From Deltaproteobacteria bacterium (GTDB lineage Bacteria > Myxococcota_A > UBA9160 > SMWR01): a stretch of 40,714 nucleotides of DNA. This document shows, in pieces, positions 12,150-34,647 of the stretch. Location: positions 1-40,714 of the forward strand of contig JAFDEI010000001.1 in NCBI GenBank assembly GCA_019310425.1. The letters run 5' to 3'. The notes beneath the pieces were generated by a model, which was given only the letters and a program-made list of their open reading frames with translations, did no database searches and had not been told where the DNA came from. Every line of letters starts with the position of its first letter. Position 1 is the stretch's first letter. The position numbers and the translations under genes were made by a program.

Positions 12150-13433
12150 ATGCGCGGTACAAGCCACCGAGGTTCGTTCCGGTTTGCGGGCACGGCGCTC
12201 GCCGTCCTTCTCGCCGGCGGCTGCGCATCTTCGCCGCACCCGCCGTTCGCGCCCCCGTCTGCCGAAGAAACCCGCCGCCTGAAGAGCTCGGGCTACGAGC
12301 TGCCGCCTGTGCTCGACGCCAAGACGCTCGCGACCCCGGCCCAGCTCCAGGGCCCGAACCACCGCATCGCGAAGAGGGTCTACAGCAACGACCGCTTGCA
12401 CGTCTACACGATCGAGTCCGAGGCCGGGACCTTCTATGCCTGGGGAGACGACGTCCTCGACGCGCGAATCCGGGAGATCGCTGCGATCCAGGCAATGAAC
12501 GAAATGCGCACCACCGAAGAATTCGCGACCGCGGCGAATGATGCACGCGCGAATTCGCTCGTCGCGGAGTGGAACTTGATTTCCGAGCCAGTCGACTCGG
12601 CAATCGGCGTACCGCAGGAAGCCTGGAAGCGCGCAAACGCGAAGGGCAGCGACCGGGCTGAGCGCAGAGCACTGAAAGCCTTCGGGCATCGCAAGCGAGA
12701 GATCGCTGCCGAATTCGCCGTCGATCCGTACAGCTCGAACGCCACGCTCCAGCGCGAGTTGAATCGCCTCGGTTGGGCCGTCTACGCGGGGGGGCTCCCC
12801 TCGATGTTCGTTCCTGCCGGCGTGGAGGCCACGGGCGAAGGCGATCGCATGCTCGAAATCCTGCGGCAGTATTCGCCGCGAGAGATCGAGCGCCTCAATC
12901 GCATCGAGCTCCGCGTGATCGGCGTCCCGAAGCCCCTCACCGATGAGTTCATCCGCAACCCGTGGTATTCGCCGCGTTACGCGACCCTGCTGGTCGCTGA
13001 CCTCGCCGCCCTGAGCAAGGCCCGGAAACGCGAAACATTCATCGAGATCGCCGCCACCGCACGATCCGAACAGGACGCGCGCTACTTCCAGCGCAGCGCT
13101 GAGTTGATGCGACAATACGACCGCAACAGAGGAAGGATCGAAGAAATCATCGAGGTCGAAGGAACCCTGATCGGCCTTACCGAAAACGGGAAGCGGGTGG
13201 TGCCCTATCCCGCAGACTTTGCGGTCTGGAGTGAATCGACTGCAGCGCTCACCGACTCCTTCACGCGGGCGGTGCCGACCGACGTGCCGGAGATGCCGAC
13301 CGAGCTGCTGCTGGCCGGGTCGGCATCTCCGGCCGCCCACCGGCAGCTCGAGAGCCGCGGCGTCACCGTCGTCGAGCACGCCTTCCACGCGCTCCGCCCG
13401 GCGCCCGGCACCAGCGACGCGGGTATCGAGTAG
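12150..13433 (+). CDS. Lipoprotein of unknown function
   Basis: GAGGAGG SD then ATG at 12150; MRGTSHRGSFRFAGTALAVLLAGGCASS lipobox; ends 4 bp before the M48 gene. Confidence 0.75.
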   Translation: MRGTSHRGSFRFAGTALAVLLAGGCASSPHPPFAPPSAEETRRLKSSGYELPPVLDAKTLATPAQLQGPNHRIAKRVYSNDRLHVYTIESEAGTFYAWGDDVLDARIREIAAIQAMNEMRTTEEFATAANDARANSLVAEWNLISEPVDSAIGVPQEAWKRANAKGSDRAERRALKAFGHRKREIAAEFAVDPYSSNATLQRELNRLGWAVYAGGLPSMFVPAGVEATGEGDRMLEILRQYSPREIERLNRIELRVIGVPKPLTDEFIRNPWYSPRYATLLVADLAALSKARKRETFIEIAATARSEQDARYFQRSAELMRQYDRNRGRIEEIIEVEGTLIGLTENGKRVVPYPADFAVWSESTAALTDSFTRAVPTDVPEMPTELLLAGSASPAAHRQLESRGVTVVEHAFHALRPAPGTSDAGIE

Positions 13434-13437
13434 AGCC

Positions 13438-14868
13438 ATGCAGAACCGCACATTGATTCCGTTGGTCGGCGTGCTGGTAGCAATTCTGTCCGTCGCCTGT
13501 GGCAGCAGCAAGGCGCCGCGAAAGCGCGAGGTCATCCTCACCAGTGAGGCGGTCGACGAGAACGTCGGCCGCGAGGCTGCCCAGAGCGTCACCACCAGTC
13601 TGGGTCTCGTGGAGACCCCCGAGCTCGTCGCGTACGTGAACCGGATCGGACAGAGTCTCGCGCGTCACGCACCACGCGGCGGCTTCGATTATCACTTCGC
13701 GATCGTCGACCAGGACGCGCCGAACGCGTTTGCGCTACCGGGCGGATACATATATGTGTCGCGCGGCCTGCTCATCCTGACCAATTCCGAGGACGAACTC
13801 GCGAACGTCCTCGGACACGAGATCGTCCACGTCGCAGCCCGACACGCCGCCGCGCGGCAGGCGATAATTCGCGGCATGCCCGGCCCGTTCAAGTTCTTCG
13901 CCCAGGGCCATATCGCCGGCTACAGCCGAGACCAGGAGCGGGAAGCGGACCGCCTGGGACAGGGTCTGGCCGGAATCGCGGGCTACGACCCGATGGGCAT
14001 GGCGATTTTCCTGAAGAACCTCGAGTTCACCGAGCGCCTGCACCTCGGCAACTCGCGCCTTCCGGGCTTCTACGACACCCACCCTGCGACCACCGAGCGC
14101 GTGGCATCCGCAGGCGGACGCGCGCGCATGGTGAACTGGCAGCGCCCGGCGGGCTATTCAGAGGGACGCACCAGCTACCTGCGACGACTCGAAGGGCTTG
14201 CGATTGGCATGAGCGGCGCCGAAGGTGTGTTCCACGACCAGCGCTTCATCCATCCCGATCTCGATTTCACACTGCGCTTTCCGGACGGCTGGGAAACATC
14301 GAACACCCACGCCGCGGTCGGCGCGGTCAGCCCCGCGCGCAACGCGCAGATCGTGCTCGAAGGTCAGGGTCCGGGAAACGATGCGGAGCTCGCGGCTTCC
14401 CAGTATCTCGGCAACCCGTCGAATGCGAACATCGTGGTCGAGCGCTCGCTGCAGGTCCCGGTCGGAAAGCACAAGGGCTTCCGCATCGACGGCAAAGCCA
14501 AAGCGGGCGGCGGCTGGCTGCCGATTGCGATCACGTGGGTCGCGCGATACGGCATGGTCTATCGCTTCACCGCCATCTCGGCCCCTGGTGCACTGCAACG
14601 CTACGAGGGTGCCTACGCGAATCTCATGCGCAGTTTCAAATCGCTCACACCGCAACAGAAGAATTCCGTGTACGAGAATCGAGTACACATCGTCGAGGGG
14701 CACGAGGGTGAGGACCTGAAAACACTCTCGAAGCGTTCCAGCAACGATTGGGACATCCAGACCACCGCCGTCTTCAACGACATCTTCGCCAACCAGCCGT
14801 TGAGTGGCGGAGAAGCCGTGAAGATCTCGGTCGCGCGCCGATATGTCGCAAAACGCCCCAAACCCTAG
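13438..14868 (+). CDS. M48 family metalloprotease (BepA/YfgC-like) with additional C-terminal domain
   Basis: VLGHEIVHVAARHAAAR (HExxH), DQEREADRLG glutamate motif, lipobox VACGSSK. Confidence 0.92.
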   Translation: MQNRTLIPLVGVLVAILSVACGSSKAPRKREVILTSEAVDENVGREAAQSVTTSLGLVETPELVAYVNRIGQSLARHAPRGGFDYHFAIVDQDAPNAFALPGGYIYVSRGLLILTNSEDELANVLGHEIVHVAARHAAARQAIIRGMPGPFKFFAQGHIAGYSRDQEREADRLGQGLAGIAGYDPMGMAIFLKNLEFTERLHLGNSRLPGFYDTHPATTERVASAGGRARMVNWQRPAGYSEGRTSYLRRLEGLAIGMSGAEGVFHDQRFIHPDLDFTLRFPDGWETSNTHAAVGAVSPARNAQIVLEGQGPGNDAELAASQYLGNPSNANIVVERSLQVPVGKHKGFRIDGKAKAGGGWLPIAITWVARYGMVYRFTAISAPGALQRYEGAYANLMRSFKSLTPQQKNSVYENRVHIVEGHEGEDLKTLSKRSSNDWDIQTTAVFNDIFANQPLSGGEAVKISVARRYVAKRPKP

Positions 14869-14898
14869 GGCTGCAGAATTTCGTCCGCTGACGTCTCT

Positions 14899-14942
14899 TG
14901 TGTGTTCCATATCGTGCACAACCACCACTGTGTGTTCGATAT
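14899..14942 (+). promoter_or_regulatory. Direct repeat, candidate enhancer-binding-protein upstream activating sites
   Basis: TGTGTGTTCCATAT (14899-14912) and TGTGTGTTCGATAT (14929-14942), 13/14 identical, exactly 30 bp apart. Confidence 0.5.
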
Positions 14943-15025
14943 GAGCAGTTTTTCGCTGCCACACGGATCCGCAGAAATCCTCATAACTCCCTTGTTTTAA
15001 AGATATTTCCGCGTTTTTGAACACT

Positions 15026-15040
15026 TGGCACGGTAAGTGC
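15026..15040 (+). promoter_or_regulatory. Sigma-54 (RpoN) -24/-12 promoter
   Basis: TGGCACGGTAAGTGC: GG at 15027-28 and GC at 15039-40 with correct 10-bp interval; matches TGGCACG-N4-TTGC except one base. Confidence 0.7.
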
Positions 15041-15076
15041 TTTTTGTGTAGGCGACGACCTGAAGAGGAGTTGCCG

Positions 15077-15742
15077 ATGAAACGCTCGAAGATCCACCGA
15101 CCCGATGAAAGCGGCTTCATCGCGCGCCTGAAGGCGGGCGACGCCGATGCCTACGAGGAACTCGTGAGGCTCTATTCGGGGCGGCTGATCGCACTCGCAC
15201 GACAGATTCTGGGAGACGAGGATCTGGCTCACGACGCAGTCCAGGACGCGTTCCTGAATGCTTTCCGCGCGATGGATCGCTTCAACGGTGACGCGCGCCT
15301 GAGCAGCTGGCTGCACCGAATCGTGATGAATGCCGCACTCGCGAAGTTACGCGTCAAGCGGCGACGACCGGAGAGCTTCTACGCCGAGGAGTTCGGCATC
15401 GGCGCAGACGAAGATCCGCTCGACCGCGCCCTGATTGCCGACCCCGGCGATGGACCCCTCTGCGTCGACGACGAAATCGCCCGATGCGAGGAGGCGCAAT
15501 TCGTCCAGAATTGCATCGCACGCCTGAAGAAGAACCACCGCACGGTGCTCACGCTCCGCTACATCCACGAGTACGATACCGAGCAGACCGCGAAGATCCT
15601 CGGTGTGGGCCCGAACACCGTGAAGACACGCCTGATGCGGGCACGCGGTGCGCTGCGCAGCCACATCGAGCGCGAGGTCGAGCACGCGTCGATGTTCATC
15701 GCATCGCTCGCTCTCGAGAGCGAGCAGTCGCAGGCCGCTTGA
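15077..15742 (+). CDS. RNA polymerase sigma factor, ECF (sigma-70 family)
   Basis: Region 2 (DEDLAHDAVQDAFLNAFRAMDRFNGDARLSSWLHRIVMNAALAKLR) and region 4 (LTLRYIHEYDTEQTAKILGVGPNTVKTRLMRARGALR); GAAGAGGAG SD. Confidence 0.93.
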   Translation: MKRSKIHRPDESGFIARLKAGDADAYEELVRLYSGRLIALARQILGDEDLAHDAVQDAFLNAFRAMDRFNGDARLSSWLHRIVMNAALAKLRVKRRRPESFYAEEFGIGADEDPLDRALIADPGDGPLCVDDEIARCEEAQFVQNCIARLKKNHRTVLTLRYIHEYDTEQTAKILGVGPNTVKTRLMRARGALRSHIEREVEHASMFIASLALESEQSQAA

Positions 15743-15759: not shown

Positions 15760-17898
15760 TCAGGGAAGCAGCGGTCGCCAACGGATCCGGGCGAGGTCGA
15801 ATGCGCTGACCGCGCCGCGGGCCTCCGCGGTCTGCGTGTTCGCGGCACGGAAACCGATCGCGGTCACGCGCTCGCGAACGAGCCGGCCCGGAATCTCGAT
15901 CGTGTGCCAGGTGAAATTCGCGTGCTCGACCCGCAGTTCTTCGACCGCAATGCCGTCGACCGCGATTTCGAGTCTCTGCGGCAGCGCCCACGGGCGCACG
16001 CGGAGCCGCACATCGAGTTCGACCGGCACGCCGATCGGCAGCTCGGCGAATACCGTCGCAACTGGACCGTTCGCAGGAACGAAGGTCGAACCGTCCACGT
16101 CACGCAACGGACCTGCCCAACCAAGATACGAGAAGTACCCGTCCGCACCCGGCTCACCAGCCGTGATCTCACGTGCATCGAGCGAAACTTCGGGAGAAAA
16201 AACCACCTCGTGGAACATCCACGAACCGGGACGGCGGCTCTCCGGACCCACCGCGTAGCGCTCGACCCGCTCCAGGTACCCACCCGGCTTCCCTTTTCGC
16301 AGAACGTAGAGCCCGTAGCTGCGCCGTCGCTTTTCACCTCTTGTTAGCTGCGCCAGGTCGCGACCGGGAAGGTCCGCATCGATCCCCGCGACGGCGGCAA
16401 TCGTGGGCGCGATGTCCTCGAGCGACGCCGGGGCGCTGGAGCGATGCAAGCCACCCTCGCCTCCGGGCCACTTGATCGCGAGCAGCGGACGGGAGCGCGA
16501 AAGCCGTGCCGCGGTCAGCCCATGCGAACCGAACGCGCGGGCCCCGAAGGAAGCACCATGATCACCCGCAACGACGATCAACGAACGACCGTAGACTCCG
16601 AGAGCCCGCAGACGATCGAGAAGCGCCTGCGTCTGCTTCATGCTGCAGCGCATCTGCTCCTCGTAGTTGGCCCGACTGTAGGGGCGTGACGGCACCTTGT
16701 TGCAATCGGCATCGAGTACGAATGGCCCGTGGCCACCCCCGGCATGCAGGATCTTGAATGTGGGCGCATCACGGCCGATGCGAATCCGCGCTGAAAATTC
16801 GTCGAAGAACGCCGCGGCGCTCGACACGAACACCGGCGCCTCGCCCTCGCGCCACAAAGCAGACTGTGCGAGCCAGCCTCCGTCGCGATAGATCGCTTGT
16901 TTGATTCCGTAGGGTGCGTGGCGAAACAGCGACAAGTCGAACAGCTGTGCCGCCATCTGAAGCCGGTAGAGGTCGGGGGATTCGTAGGGGCGCGGAATCG
17001 CGAAGCAGTTCGAATAGCGGCCCTTGAGGCAGAAGAGCGGCCAGGCCGAAACCCAGTCGACCTTGAAACCCGCCTCCATCAGCGAGCCGGTGATTGCGTC
17101 ACGCTGCAATGAGGCAGTCATGTAGTCGTCGATCGGCATTCGATTGTCGTATGCCGGAGCTCCGAGCATCACCGGCAGGCTGTACTGCGTCGACGGAAAT
17201 GCCCCCGTCGTGTCGCTGAAGAACTCGAAGCCGGAGAACACCGCGTCGTAGGACTCGGGGTCGCGGTCGGCGAACTGCGCGAAGGTGTCGGAAGTGACGG
17301 TATCGATGATCAGCAGCACGATGTTCGTGCCTGTCGAGAATTCGAAGATCTCATCGTCGGCAACCAGCGCGGGTACTGCCGCAGAACCCTCGTCGGCCGC
17401 ATTCCAGTCGAGCGGCAGCGCGACGAGCTGAAGCGCGAGAAAGATCCCCGCGATCGTGGCCACGCGAGCGCGCAGCGCGCGATGAAAGACCTGCGCGGCA
17501 ACGATGCCGGAAATCCACAACAGTGCGTCGCGAACGCGCGCCGATGCCTCGACCGAAAAATCGAGCTCATTACCGTCGAGCAGGCCGAAGTTCCCGACGA
17601 GCCAATTTCCCTGAAGCCAGGCCAGAACGGCAAGTGAAAACACGAACGCAAGAGCGCGGCTTCGCCCGCGCCCGGGAACCAACCATTGCAGCGCCGCGAA
17701 GACGACCGTCAGCCCAAGCGCGGCCGAGGCCAACAGCCAGAACACGCTCCAGTACGAGGCCCCGTATTCGGTACTGTTCGCCGCGTAGAGGGTCCGCGGA
17801 CCGACGATTGCGAGGTTCACCGCCAACAGCGCGCTCACTAATAGCGCGTGAGTCGCTTTCGGCTGCTGCTCCGTGCCGCGCACTTCACTGCTTTGCAT
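15760..17898 (-). CDS. Membrane-anchored alkaline-phosphatase/sulfatase superfamily protein (LTA-synthase/phosphoethanolamine-transferase-like)
   Basis: N-terminal TM helices; NIVLLIIDTVTSDTF metal-binding start, FPSTQYSLPVMLGAP nucleophile region, VAGDHGASFGARAFGSHG; ATG at 17898 preferred over ORF start 18033. Confidence 0.8.
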   Translation of the reverse strand: MQSSEVRGTEQQPKATHALLVSALLAVNLAIVGPRTLYAANSTEYGASYWSVFWLLASAALGLTVVFAALQWLVPGRGRSRALAFVFSLAVLAWLQGNWLVGNFGLLDGNELDFSVEASARVRDALLWISGIVAAQVFHRALRARVATIAGIFLALQLVALPLDWNAADEGSAAVPALVADDEIFEFSTGTNIVLLIIDTVTSDTFAQFADRDPESYDAVFSGFEFFSDTTGAFPSTQYSLPVMLGAPAYDNRMPIDDYMTASLQRDAITGSLMEAGFKVDWVSAWPLFCLKGRYSNCFAIPRPYESPDLYRLQMAAQLFDLSLFRHAPYGIKQAIYRDGGWLAQSALWREGEAPVFVSSAAAFFDEFSARIRIGRDAPTFKILHAGGGHGPFVLDADCNKVPSRPYSRANYEEQMRCSMKQTQALLDRLRALGVYGRSLIVVAGDHGASFGARAFGSHGLTAARLSRSRPLLAIKWPGGEGGLHRSSAPASLEDIAPTIAAVAGIDADLPGRDLAQLTRGEKRRRSYGLYVLRKGKPGGYLERVERYAVGPESRRPGSWMFHEVVFSPEVSLDAREITAGEPGADGYFSYLGWAGPLRDVDGSTFVPANGPVATVFAELPIGVPVELDVRLRVRPWALPQRLEIAVDGIAVEELRVEHANFTWHTIEIPGRLVRERVTAIGFRAANTQTAEARGAVSAFDLARIRWRPLLP

Positions 17899-18024
17899 CC
17901 GGCTCCCCGGGAGTGGAGGTTGGGCCCCAGCACAACTCAGGTTATCGTTTCGCGCGCAGCGGTGACGTACTTTCCCAGGCCGCGATCCGCGGCTCCGGAC
18001 GTCGAGAAGATCCGAGGTGAATGA

Positions 18025-20271
18025 ATGGCGCACCCACTTTCATCTCGAACGTCGACCCGGATCCTACTCGTCGCAGTGTGGTCGTTCGCCTGTGGCGGCT
18101 CCGGCGACGATGTCGCCCCGCAACGCGCCGAGGGGTTGCGCAAGCCCCAAGCTGCGATCGAAGCCACGGCTGATCGCCAAAGCTCGGGAACCGCCGCGGT
18201 CGCGCCACCGGGAGACTCGCAGATCTTGTTCGGCGATCTCCACATCCACACGTCGTATTCGTGGGATGGATTCCTGTTCTCGCTGCCGCTGGTTGGCGGC
18301 GAGGGCGTGCACCCGCCCGCCGACGCGTGCGACTTCGCGCGTTACTGCGCCGACCTCGACTTCTTCGCGCTCACCGACCACGCCGAATCGATGCTGGCCG
18401 AGAACTGGTCGGCGTCGAAGGAGAGCATCCGCCACTGCAACGCGCTCGCAGGCGACGCGAGCGACCCCGACCTGGTCGCCTTCATGGGCTTCGAATGGAG
18501 CCAGGCGGGACTCACCCCCGAGACCCACTGGGGGCACCGAAATGTCATCTTCCCCGGAACCGACGAGAGCGAACTGCCCACCCGCCCGATCGGTGCCGGA
18601 GCGAAGCGCGAGCTCCACCAGGCGCTCGGCCGCAACATGGCCACATTGCGCTGGTTGCAACCGCAGGGCTTTCGCGAGTACACCGCCTTCGTCGACTACA
18701 TCGACGCTCTGTCTCGGCGAGAGGTCTGTGAAGAGGGCGTTGGCGTCCACGAACTACCGCTTACCTGTGAGGAGATCGCCCCGTCGCCACACGAGCTCTA
18801 CGCAAAGCTCGACGAGTGGGGCTTCGAAACGCTCGCGATCCCCCACGGAACCACCTGGGGGACCTACACGCCTGCGGGCAGCTCCATCGCGAAGCACCTC
18901 GATCCGCTGCACTACGATCGCGAGCGGCAGGGCCTGATCGAAATCTACTCGGGTCACGGCAACTCCGAGGATTTCCGCGACTTTCGTCCGTTCGAGATCG
19001 ACGCAGACGGTGAGCGCAGTTGCCCCGAGCCCACCGCCGACTACCTGCCGTGCTGCTGGCAGGCAGGCGAGATCATGCGATCGCGCTGCGGCGACCTCGA
19101 AGCGTCCGAGTGCCAGGCCCGCGTTGAGCTGGCTCGGCGATATGCGGCCAATGTCGACCTGCGCCCCCACAACGTGTTTCCGGATGCCGCCCCCGAGCAA
19201 TGGCTCGACTGCGGGCAGTGCCGCGACTGCCTCAGGCCCTCGTACGGCTACCGGCCGCGCGAGTCGGTCCAATACGCGATGGCGCTCTCCGATCCGCAAG
19301 CAACCGATGCCGATGGGCGCCCGCTGCGCTTCCGCTACGGATTCGTCGGCTCGAGCGACGGTCACTCGGCGCGGCCGGGCACCGGCTACAAACAGATCGA
19401 ACGCAGCATGATGACCGACGCGGTCGGAACGCCCGGATTCATCATCGACACCTTCAACCATTGGAGCCGCCGGATGGACGACCCCCGCATGCCAATCGCG
19501 CCGGAGCGCGGGGCGATCGGCGTGGTGGGCTCGGACAACCGCGTCGCGAGCTTCCTCTACGCCGGCGGCCTCGCCGCCGTCCACTCGCAGAGCCGCAGTC
19601 GCGAGGCAATCTGGCAGGCGATGAAGCGGCGCGAAGTCTACGGCACCAGCGGCCCGAGGATCCTGCTGTGGTTCGACCTCACCAACGCCCCGAGTGGGCC
19701 CGTGCCGATGGGTGCCGAAGTCGAGCTCGCGGAGAACCCACGCTTCGAAGTGCGATCGGTCGGCGCTTTTCAGCAGCAGCCCGGCTGCCCGGAATGGAGT
19801 CGGCAGGGTCTACGGCCGGAGCGCTTGCAACGCCTCTGCCGAAACGAGTGCTACCACCCGAGCGACGAGCGCTATGCGATCTCCGCGATCGAGGTCGTCC
19901 GCATCCGACCGCAGACCCGTCACGGTGAAGCCGTCGCGCCGCTCATCGAAGACCCGTGGCGCAGGTTCCCATGTGACCGCGAGCAGGACGGCTGTTCGGC
20001 CGTCTTCGAGGACCCCGAGTACGCGACCTCCGGGCGCGACGCACTCTACTACGTGCGGGTGCTGCAAGAACCGACCACAGCCTTGAACGGCGCACCGCTC
20101 AGCACGCAGTTCGATGCCGAAGGCAACGCGATCGGGACGACGCTGTGCTGGGGTGACGACAAAGACTCGCTGGCAGGGTGCCCCGCGCCGGTGCAGGAGC
20201 GAGCCTGGTCGTCGCCCATCTTCGTCAACCAGCCGCGCAGACCCGAGCGCACACGGGAGACCTCCCCATGA
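18025..20271 (+). CDS. DUF3604 domain-containing lipoprotein
   Basis: LVAVWSFACGGS lipobox; LFGDLHIHTSYSWDGFLFSLP, FFALTDHAESM, GFVGSSDGHSARPGTGYKQ, MKRREVYGTSGPRI. Confidence 0.9.
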   Translation: MAHPLSSRTSTRILLVAVWSFACGGSGDDVAPQRAEGLRKPQAAIEATADRQSSGTAAVAPPGDSQILFGDLHIHTSYSWDGFLFSLPLVGGEGVHPPADACDFARYCADLDFFALTDHAESMLAENWSASKESIRHCNALAGDASDPDLVAFMGFEWSQAGLTPETHWGHRNVIFPGTDESELPTRPIGAGAKRELHQALGRNMATLRWLQPQGFREYTAFVDYIDALSRREVCEEGVGVHELPLTCEEIAPSPHELYAKLDEWGFETLAIPHGTTWGTYTPAGSSIAKHLDPLHYDRERQGLIEIYSGHGNSEDFRDFRPFEIDADGERSCPEPTADYLPCCWQAGEIMRSRCGDLEASECQARVELARRYAANVDLRPHNVFPDAAPEQWLDCGQCRDCLRPSYGYRPRESVQYAMALSDPQATDADGRPLRFRYGFVGSSDGHSARPGTGYKQIERSMMTDAVGTPGFIIDTFNHWSRRMDDPRMPIAPERGAIGVVGSDNRVASFLYAGGLAAVHSQSRSREAIWQAMKRREVYGTSGPRILLWFDLTNAPSGPVPMGAEVELAENPRFEVRSVGAFQQQPGCPEWSRQGLRPERLQRLCRNECYHPSDERYAISAIEVVRIRPQTRHGEAVAPLIEDPWRRFPCDREQDGCSAVFEDPEYATSGRDALYYVRVLQEPTTALNGAPLSTQFDAEGNAIGTTLCWGDDKDSLAGCPAPVQERAWSSPIFVNQPRRPERTRETSP

Positions 20272-34298: not shown

Positions 34299-34404
34299 TC
34301 GAAGCCCTATCTTGCTGACTGGGGCGCCGCCAGAGCCCGCTTCGAGCTGGTACGAAGCTTGCTCTACCAAGGGGCCTCAGAATCCGCCCCGAGGAGGTTC
34401 CCGA

Positions 34405-34647
34405 ATGCCCCGCTACTACGATGACGAAATGACCGACCGCAACGCCCCGAGCCCCGGCATCGCTGCGGTGCTGTCGGTGTTGCTGCCCGGACTCGGGCAG
34501 GTCTACTGCGGTCGTTTGCTCGCGGGCGCGATCTGGTTCCTCGCCACCGCAGCCGGCTACTCGTTGATCCTGGTGCCGGGCTTCCTGATCCACGCACTCA
34601 GCGTCTGGTCCGCCTACGCGAGCGCGCGCGACTGGGACGGCTACTGA
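34405..34647 (+). CDS. Small TM2-like membrane protein
   Basis: 80 aa, SPGIAAVLSVLLPGLGQVYCGRLLAGAIWFLATAAGYSLILVPGFLIHALSVWSAY; GAGGAGG SD. Confidence 0.75.
   Translation: MPRYYDDEMTDRNAPSPGIAAVLSVLLPGLGQVYCGRLLAGAIWFLATAAGYSLILVPGFLIHALSVWSAYASARDWDGY

Follow-up and report, generated by a model that had tools for sequence, protein, structure and literature searches.

How is an ECF sigma factor kept under control when no anti-sigma gene lies beside its own? As a rule, ECF sigma factors are restrained by anti-sigma factors, only a minority of them being controlled by transcription alone, and the change between these two states is rarely visible. The question is raised by a locus within the window, by which we mean the whole stretch of DNA analyzed here, that is, 40,714 nucleotides of contig JAFDEI010000001.1 (assembly GCA_019310425.1). 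The gene concerned (15077-15742, forward strand) encodes a protein of 221 amino acids that scored above the cut-off for PF04542 and PF08281, as well as for the NCBIfam model sigma70-ECF, and that had no match to region 1 or 3, which identifies it as an ECF sigma factor. It is preceded by a gene for an M48-family metallopeptidase (PF01435) on the same strand (13432-14868, with a possible start at 13438), from which it is separated by an intergenic region of 208 bp (14869-15076). The next gene downstream, located on the reverse strand at 15760-18033, is convergent and encodes a sulfatase-domain protein (PF00884), not an anti-sigma factor, and no frame with the HxxxCxxC zinc-finger signature of anti-sigma-like proteins was found near the ECF gene. 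A preliminary description of this DNA had already presented the gene as one without an adjoining anti-sigma gene, preceded by a good Shine-Dalgarno sequence and by a region that is AT-rich for this genome. Our analysis agrees on all three points: a GAGGAG sequence is present at 15065-15070 on the forward strand, 6 nt 5' of the ATG at 15077, and the GC content of the intergenic region is 48.6%, versus 62.9% for intergenic DNA sampled from the genome.

A first part of the answer may lie in this intergenic region. The preliminary description had noted an RpoN-like site matching all but one base of the consensus, and this site was indeed found: TGGCACGGTAAGTGC, at 15026-15040 on the forward strand, differs at a single position from TGGCACG-N4-TTGC. 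Its -24 element, TGGCACG (15026-15032), is perfect, whereas its -12 element, GTGC (15037-15040), differs from the consensus TTGC by a T to G change of the first base; the GG and GC are thus retained, and the element is followed by TTTTT. The site is located 36 bp from the ATG of the ECF gene, which places a near-consensus GG-N10-GC motif upstream of the gene, and the geometry of sigma-54 promoters predicts a transcription start at 15052, 12 nt past the C of the GC. The description would have lost its basis had rpoN been absent; the genome does contain rpoN, with an intact DNA-binding domain, together with about 19 genes encoding a strong sigma-54 activator domain (PF00158). Only two sites with one mismatch are present in the window. 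The other one, TGGTACGAAGCTTGC, at 34348-34362, is followed after 42 bp by a small gene (34405-34647) whose product has a DUF5683 match below the cut-off.

The bare string TGGCACGN5TGC is not over-represented in the genome (19 matches, versus 17 for the reversed pattern), and therefore it is position that matters: the evidence lies in the place of the site before a gene and in a control with altered spacings. In this control, genes were called by a simple home-made caller based on codon usage, and sites were counted if they had at most one mismatch, were located between genes and lay no more than 150 bp 5' of a start. In 1.56 Mb, about a third of the genome and including some contigs chosen for their motif matches, 15 sites, the candidate among them, were found upstream of genes at the N4 spacing, compared with a mean of 1.1 (range 0-3) for twelve wrong spacings. 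When the control was repeated on 1.04 Mb of contigs not picked by motif, some of which had been picked for their activator genes, the corresponding numbers were 5 sites versus 0.9 on average, and never more than 2, at the wrong spacings. From both counts it follows that about 80-90% of the near-consensus sites upstream of genes should be real. Several of the genes behind them fit known sigma-54 targets, namely those for an activator response regulator, a FliA-like sigma factor, a pilin-like protein and a histidine kinase, and so does a PII gene preceded by a site with two mismatches. A second activator and a proteasomal-ATPase-like protein are also encoded behind such sites.

Two of these sites deserve mention in their own right. 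One (L199:3265, minus strand of contig C243 of the same genome) is located about 99 bp upstream of the proteasomal-ATPase-domain gene, and a proteasome-like ATPase would be an unusual target for sigma-54. The other (L141:575, minus strand of contig C366) lies about 96 bp upstream of the FliA-like sigma-factor gene; two activator genes are present on the same contig, and the site possibly marks a second sigma-54-to-sigma cascade.

It could be argued that the match upstream of the ECF gene arose by chance, or belongs to a weak intrinsic terminator of the M48 gene, and that the ECF gene has a promoter of another type or is expressed by autoregulation or read-through. Chance alone would place about one such site per megabase before a gene, autoregulation is found in most ECF operons (PMC8103513), and GGCAC-GGTAA-GTGCT with the T-tract behind it may alternatively represent a weak terminator-like hairpin (fold z -1.96). 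However, the stem of this hairpin has only about five pairs and the complementarity of GCA and TGC is inherent in the sigma-54 consensus, a scan of the region upstream of the ECF gene revealed no sigma-70-like promoter, and the enrichment before genes occurs only at the sigma-54 spacing. An ECF-type promoter starting from the GAAC at 15019 was considered by eye and dropped, as no -10 element is present at 16-17 nt. We therefore regard coincidence or a terminator as improbable. The computational evidence thus gives good support to a sigma-54 promoter in front of the ECF gene, which is very probably real and which, we infer, is used to express it. Of the proposal that the gene is sigma-54-driven, it is the promoter itself that gains from the presence of rpoN, the activator domains and the spacing enrichment; direct regulation by RpoN, a presumed signal and a presumed regulon would complete the circuit.

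Sigma-54 promoters bring with them the question of an activator and its binding sites. A 13/14 direct repeat with a spacing of 30 bp is present upstream of the promoter, as had been described: TGTGTGTTCCATAT at 14899-14912 and TGTGTGTTCGATAT at 14929-14942, both read on the forward strand. The first copy is the core of an imperfect palindrome, TGTGTTCCATATCGTGCACA (14901-14920, TGTG-N2-C-N-ATAT-N-G-N2-CACA), in which 7 of 10 positions pair; the chance of such a dyad is about 3% at a fixed site and 45% anywhere in a region of this kind. The dyad of copy 1 is centered at about -141 relative to the predicted transcription start, and the same register of copy 2, in which the dyad is broken, at about -111. 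Both positions fall within the range of about 80-200 bp upstream that is expected of enhancers, and the arrangement presumably resembles that of the two strong NtrC sites of the glnA promoter. The repeats may therefore be candidate upstream sites for a sigma-54 activator, a role that is plausible but unproven.

On the other hand, it is possible, although we somewhat doubt it, that the sigma-54 promoter is real and that the repeats are not the enhancer of its activator, being either chance occurrences or sites for another regulator. Sigma-54 activators usually bind palindromes, and a dyad is present in copy 1 alone, with 7 of 10 pairs. The 13/14 repeat did not arise in any of 400 dinucleotide shuffles of the region, which, like its typical enhancer position, speaks against chance; yet the repeat by itself is only moderately unusual, because 25 of 639 real intergenic regions of the genome (about 4%) hold a comparable one within 90 bp. 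An activator gene carrying the repeat in its own promoter, which the preliminary description had suggested looking for, did not turn up in a search across the genome, nor did a second target: no second good copy of the repeat or of the palindrome was found, the latter being unique at zero to one mismatch. The single match to the repeat with one mismatch, in contig C257, falls on the start codon of an SDR-like gene and was rejected as probably due to chance. In the case of the repeats, then, position, spacing and the weak dyad over copy 1 favor the proposed activator binding, whereas the lack of any other genomic promoter with the motif counts against it.

The second part of the answer comes from the relatives of this gene. 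Its best homologues in the order share 45-53% identity with the window protein and occupy another locus. In most of the relatives read, the gene order of this usual locus is EF-G-like, ATPase-like, TerB-domain, ECF, zf-HC2 anti-sigma-like and FAD-dependent disulfide-reductase-like, the TerB and zf-HC2 assignments having been made by Pfam. The zf-HC2 anti-sigma-like gene, of about 80 codons, directly follows the ECF gene, and in some relatives in which the ECF gene is instead located after an arsenate-reductase-like gene, the zf-HC2 gene is still present. An ECF match with an E value of up to 1e-42 was obtained in 22 genomes of the order, the window genome included, of which 20 also match the zf-HC2 anti-sigma profile; the two exceptions are the window genome (G000) and G029. 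The relatives compared belong to other genera, and wider searches of contigs and plasmids returned distant ECFs only. In the relatives, genes other than an ECF gene lie downstream of the M48 homologues.

The ECF homologue of G029 (contig C124, L120) is preceded by a small gene that, judged by eye, resembles one for a STAS-domain protein, and this genome possibly represents an independent loss of the partner.

The relatives also differ in what precedes the ECF gene. In all seven relatives of the same taxonomic family, the start codon is closely preceded by a TAnnnT box, and among the relatives at large many have such a box 6-9 nt 5' of the start (L003, L007-L010, L012, L014, L016, L017, L021, L023 and L025). 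Its position suggests a -10 box of a housekeeping-type promoter that would generate a leaderless transcript. The window ECF gene has no TAnnnT box and has a Shine-Dalgarno sequence in its place. No sigma-54 site with one mismatch was found upstream of the relatives' ECF genes that were examined.

What has become of the usual locus in the window genome? On its contig C38, the TerB gene and the FAD-reductase gene, the latter 66% identical to its homologue in the relatives, lie side by side, separated by a gap of 245 bp in which no remnant of an ECF or anti-sigma gene was detected. Likewise, the profile search of this genome (91% complete, in 368 contigs) did not recognize a cognate zf-HC2 anti-sigma gene; the sole match to the anti-sigma profile is weak and lies beside another ECF gene, on C243.

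An anti-sigma factor encoded elsewhere might nevertheless still control the window ECF, its gene being either too divergent to be recognized or missing from an assembly of this completeness. Other bacteria do have some ECF factors whose anti-sigma gene lies at a distance. However, the two genes adjoin in nearly all of the relatives read; the profile has matches in 30 of 80 genomes and did not retrieve a cognate in the window genome; and the linker that is conserved in the relatives is altered in the window ECF. We consider a persisting unlinked partner unlikely. The idea that transcriptional control replaces anti-sigma control, put forward in the preliminary description, is strengthened by the paired locus of the relatives and by the empty slot.

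The origin of the window ECF is less clear. In alignments with its relatives, regions 2 and 4 are intact, while the linker between sigma2 and sigma4 is altered, the relatives' motif (such as PEQSIEDLLPG) being replaced, and an extra C-terminal tail is present. The protein joins the ECF family of the order, apart from other ECFs, with support of 100/96, and is placed just outside a clade of 28 others (support 88/83) on an end branch of 1.95, versus a median of 0.39. A clade of the window ECF with its own taxonomic family was not rejected (p-AU 0.11, or 0.36 without outgroups). The tree is therefore compatible with either a moved orthologue or an older paralogue, and settles neither.

According to the first possibility, a regulatory conversion took place, in which the ECF gene left its anti-sigma operon, lost its inhibitor, diverged fast in its linker, and gained a sigma-54 promoter and tandem enhancers. 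We put this forward tentatively, at somewhat less than even weight. According to the second, the window ECF is either a paralogue of long standing or an acquisition from beyond the order sampled, and the usual pair was lost independently. This is nearly an evenly balanced proposition: the long branch outside the 28-member clade and the absence of synteny common to the window ECF and its relatives argue for it, while the best match, which comes from the same family with 53% identity, the non-rejection of a clade with that family, and the absence of another close copy from the window genome argue against it.

Whichever origin applies, the gene and its site, rpoN and the activators, the class of sites specific to one spacing, the empty slot and the failure to recognize a partner are computational observations, and we consider it likely that they reflect a sigma-54-driven orphan ECF, control of which has probably moved from an inhibitor to transcription. 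RpoN holoenzyme would bind at 15026-15040 and transcription would begin near 15052, once the promoter is opened by an activator whose gene lies elsewhere in the genome and which is perhaps bound at the repeats. The ECF factor so made would not be held by a cognate anti-sigma factor. It belongs to, or near, the order-wide family normally encoded directly before a zf-HC2 gene; in the window genome the pair is gone from its usual place, and a lone ECF gene stands between unrelated genes with a promoter of a different type. From the lost pair, the lone gene and the different promoter, we infer that control probably moved from protein inhibition to sigma-54-dependent transcription, in a manner like that of HrpRS and HrpL.

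The sigma-54-to-ECF circuit is already known from HrpL, which makes the present case less surprising. HrpL (ECF32) of the plant pathogen Pseudomonas syringae and its relatives is expressed from a sigma-54 promoter with HrpRS as activators and without anti-sigma control (PMC8999054; PMC5263251), and a review names it first among the transcriptionally controlled ECF factors that lack an anti-sigma factor (PMC8999054); a cascade of the HrpL type has also been described in Pantoea (PMC8103513). The likeness to the window ECF is one of mechanism. Unlike HrpL, the window gene has its closest kin in a family found across the order, which retains a zf-HC2 anti-sigma gene; no gene for an activator adjoins it, and no secretion genes were recognized beside it. 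A second comparison is with SigE (ECF39) of Streptomyces, which is not known to be driven through a sigma-54 promoter. SigE is under the control of the two-component system CseBC and, as we propose for the window ECF, it is regulated at the level of transcription and not by an anti-sigma factor (PMC8999054). SigX of Pseudomonas was set aside as a second precedent, as a review describes an interplay with CbrAB and no sigma-54 promoter on sigX. The closest homologues of the window protein remain the ECF/zf-HC2 pairs of the TerB/FAD-reductase locus, which differ from it in having the anti-sigma gene next door and, within the taxonomic family, a TAnnnT box and no sigma-54 site. The window ECF is thus a probable further member of the known class of sigma-54-to-ECF cascades, and likely a case of regulatory rewiring. 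What is new here is the pairing of ECF and zf-HC2 genes in the relatives, set against a lone ECF gene and an empty usual locus in the window genome, so that a single family offers for comparison both the paired state and the orphan state, in which a sigma-54 promoter is probable. If true, the conversion would show how HrpL-like orphan ECFs arise from ordinary sigma/anti-sigma pairs.
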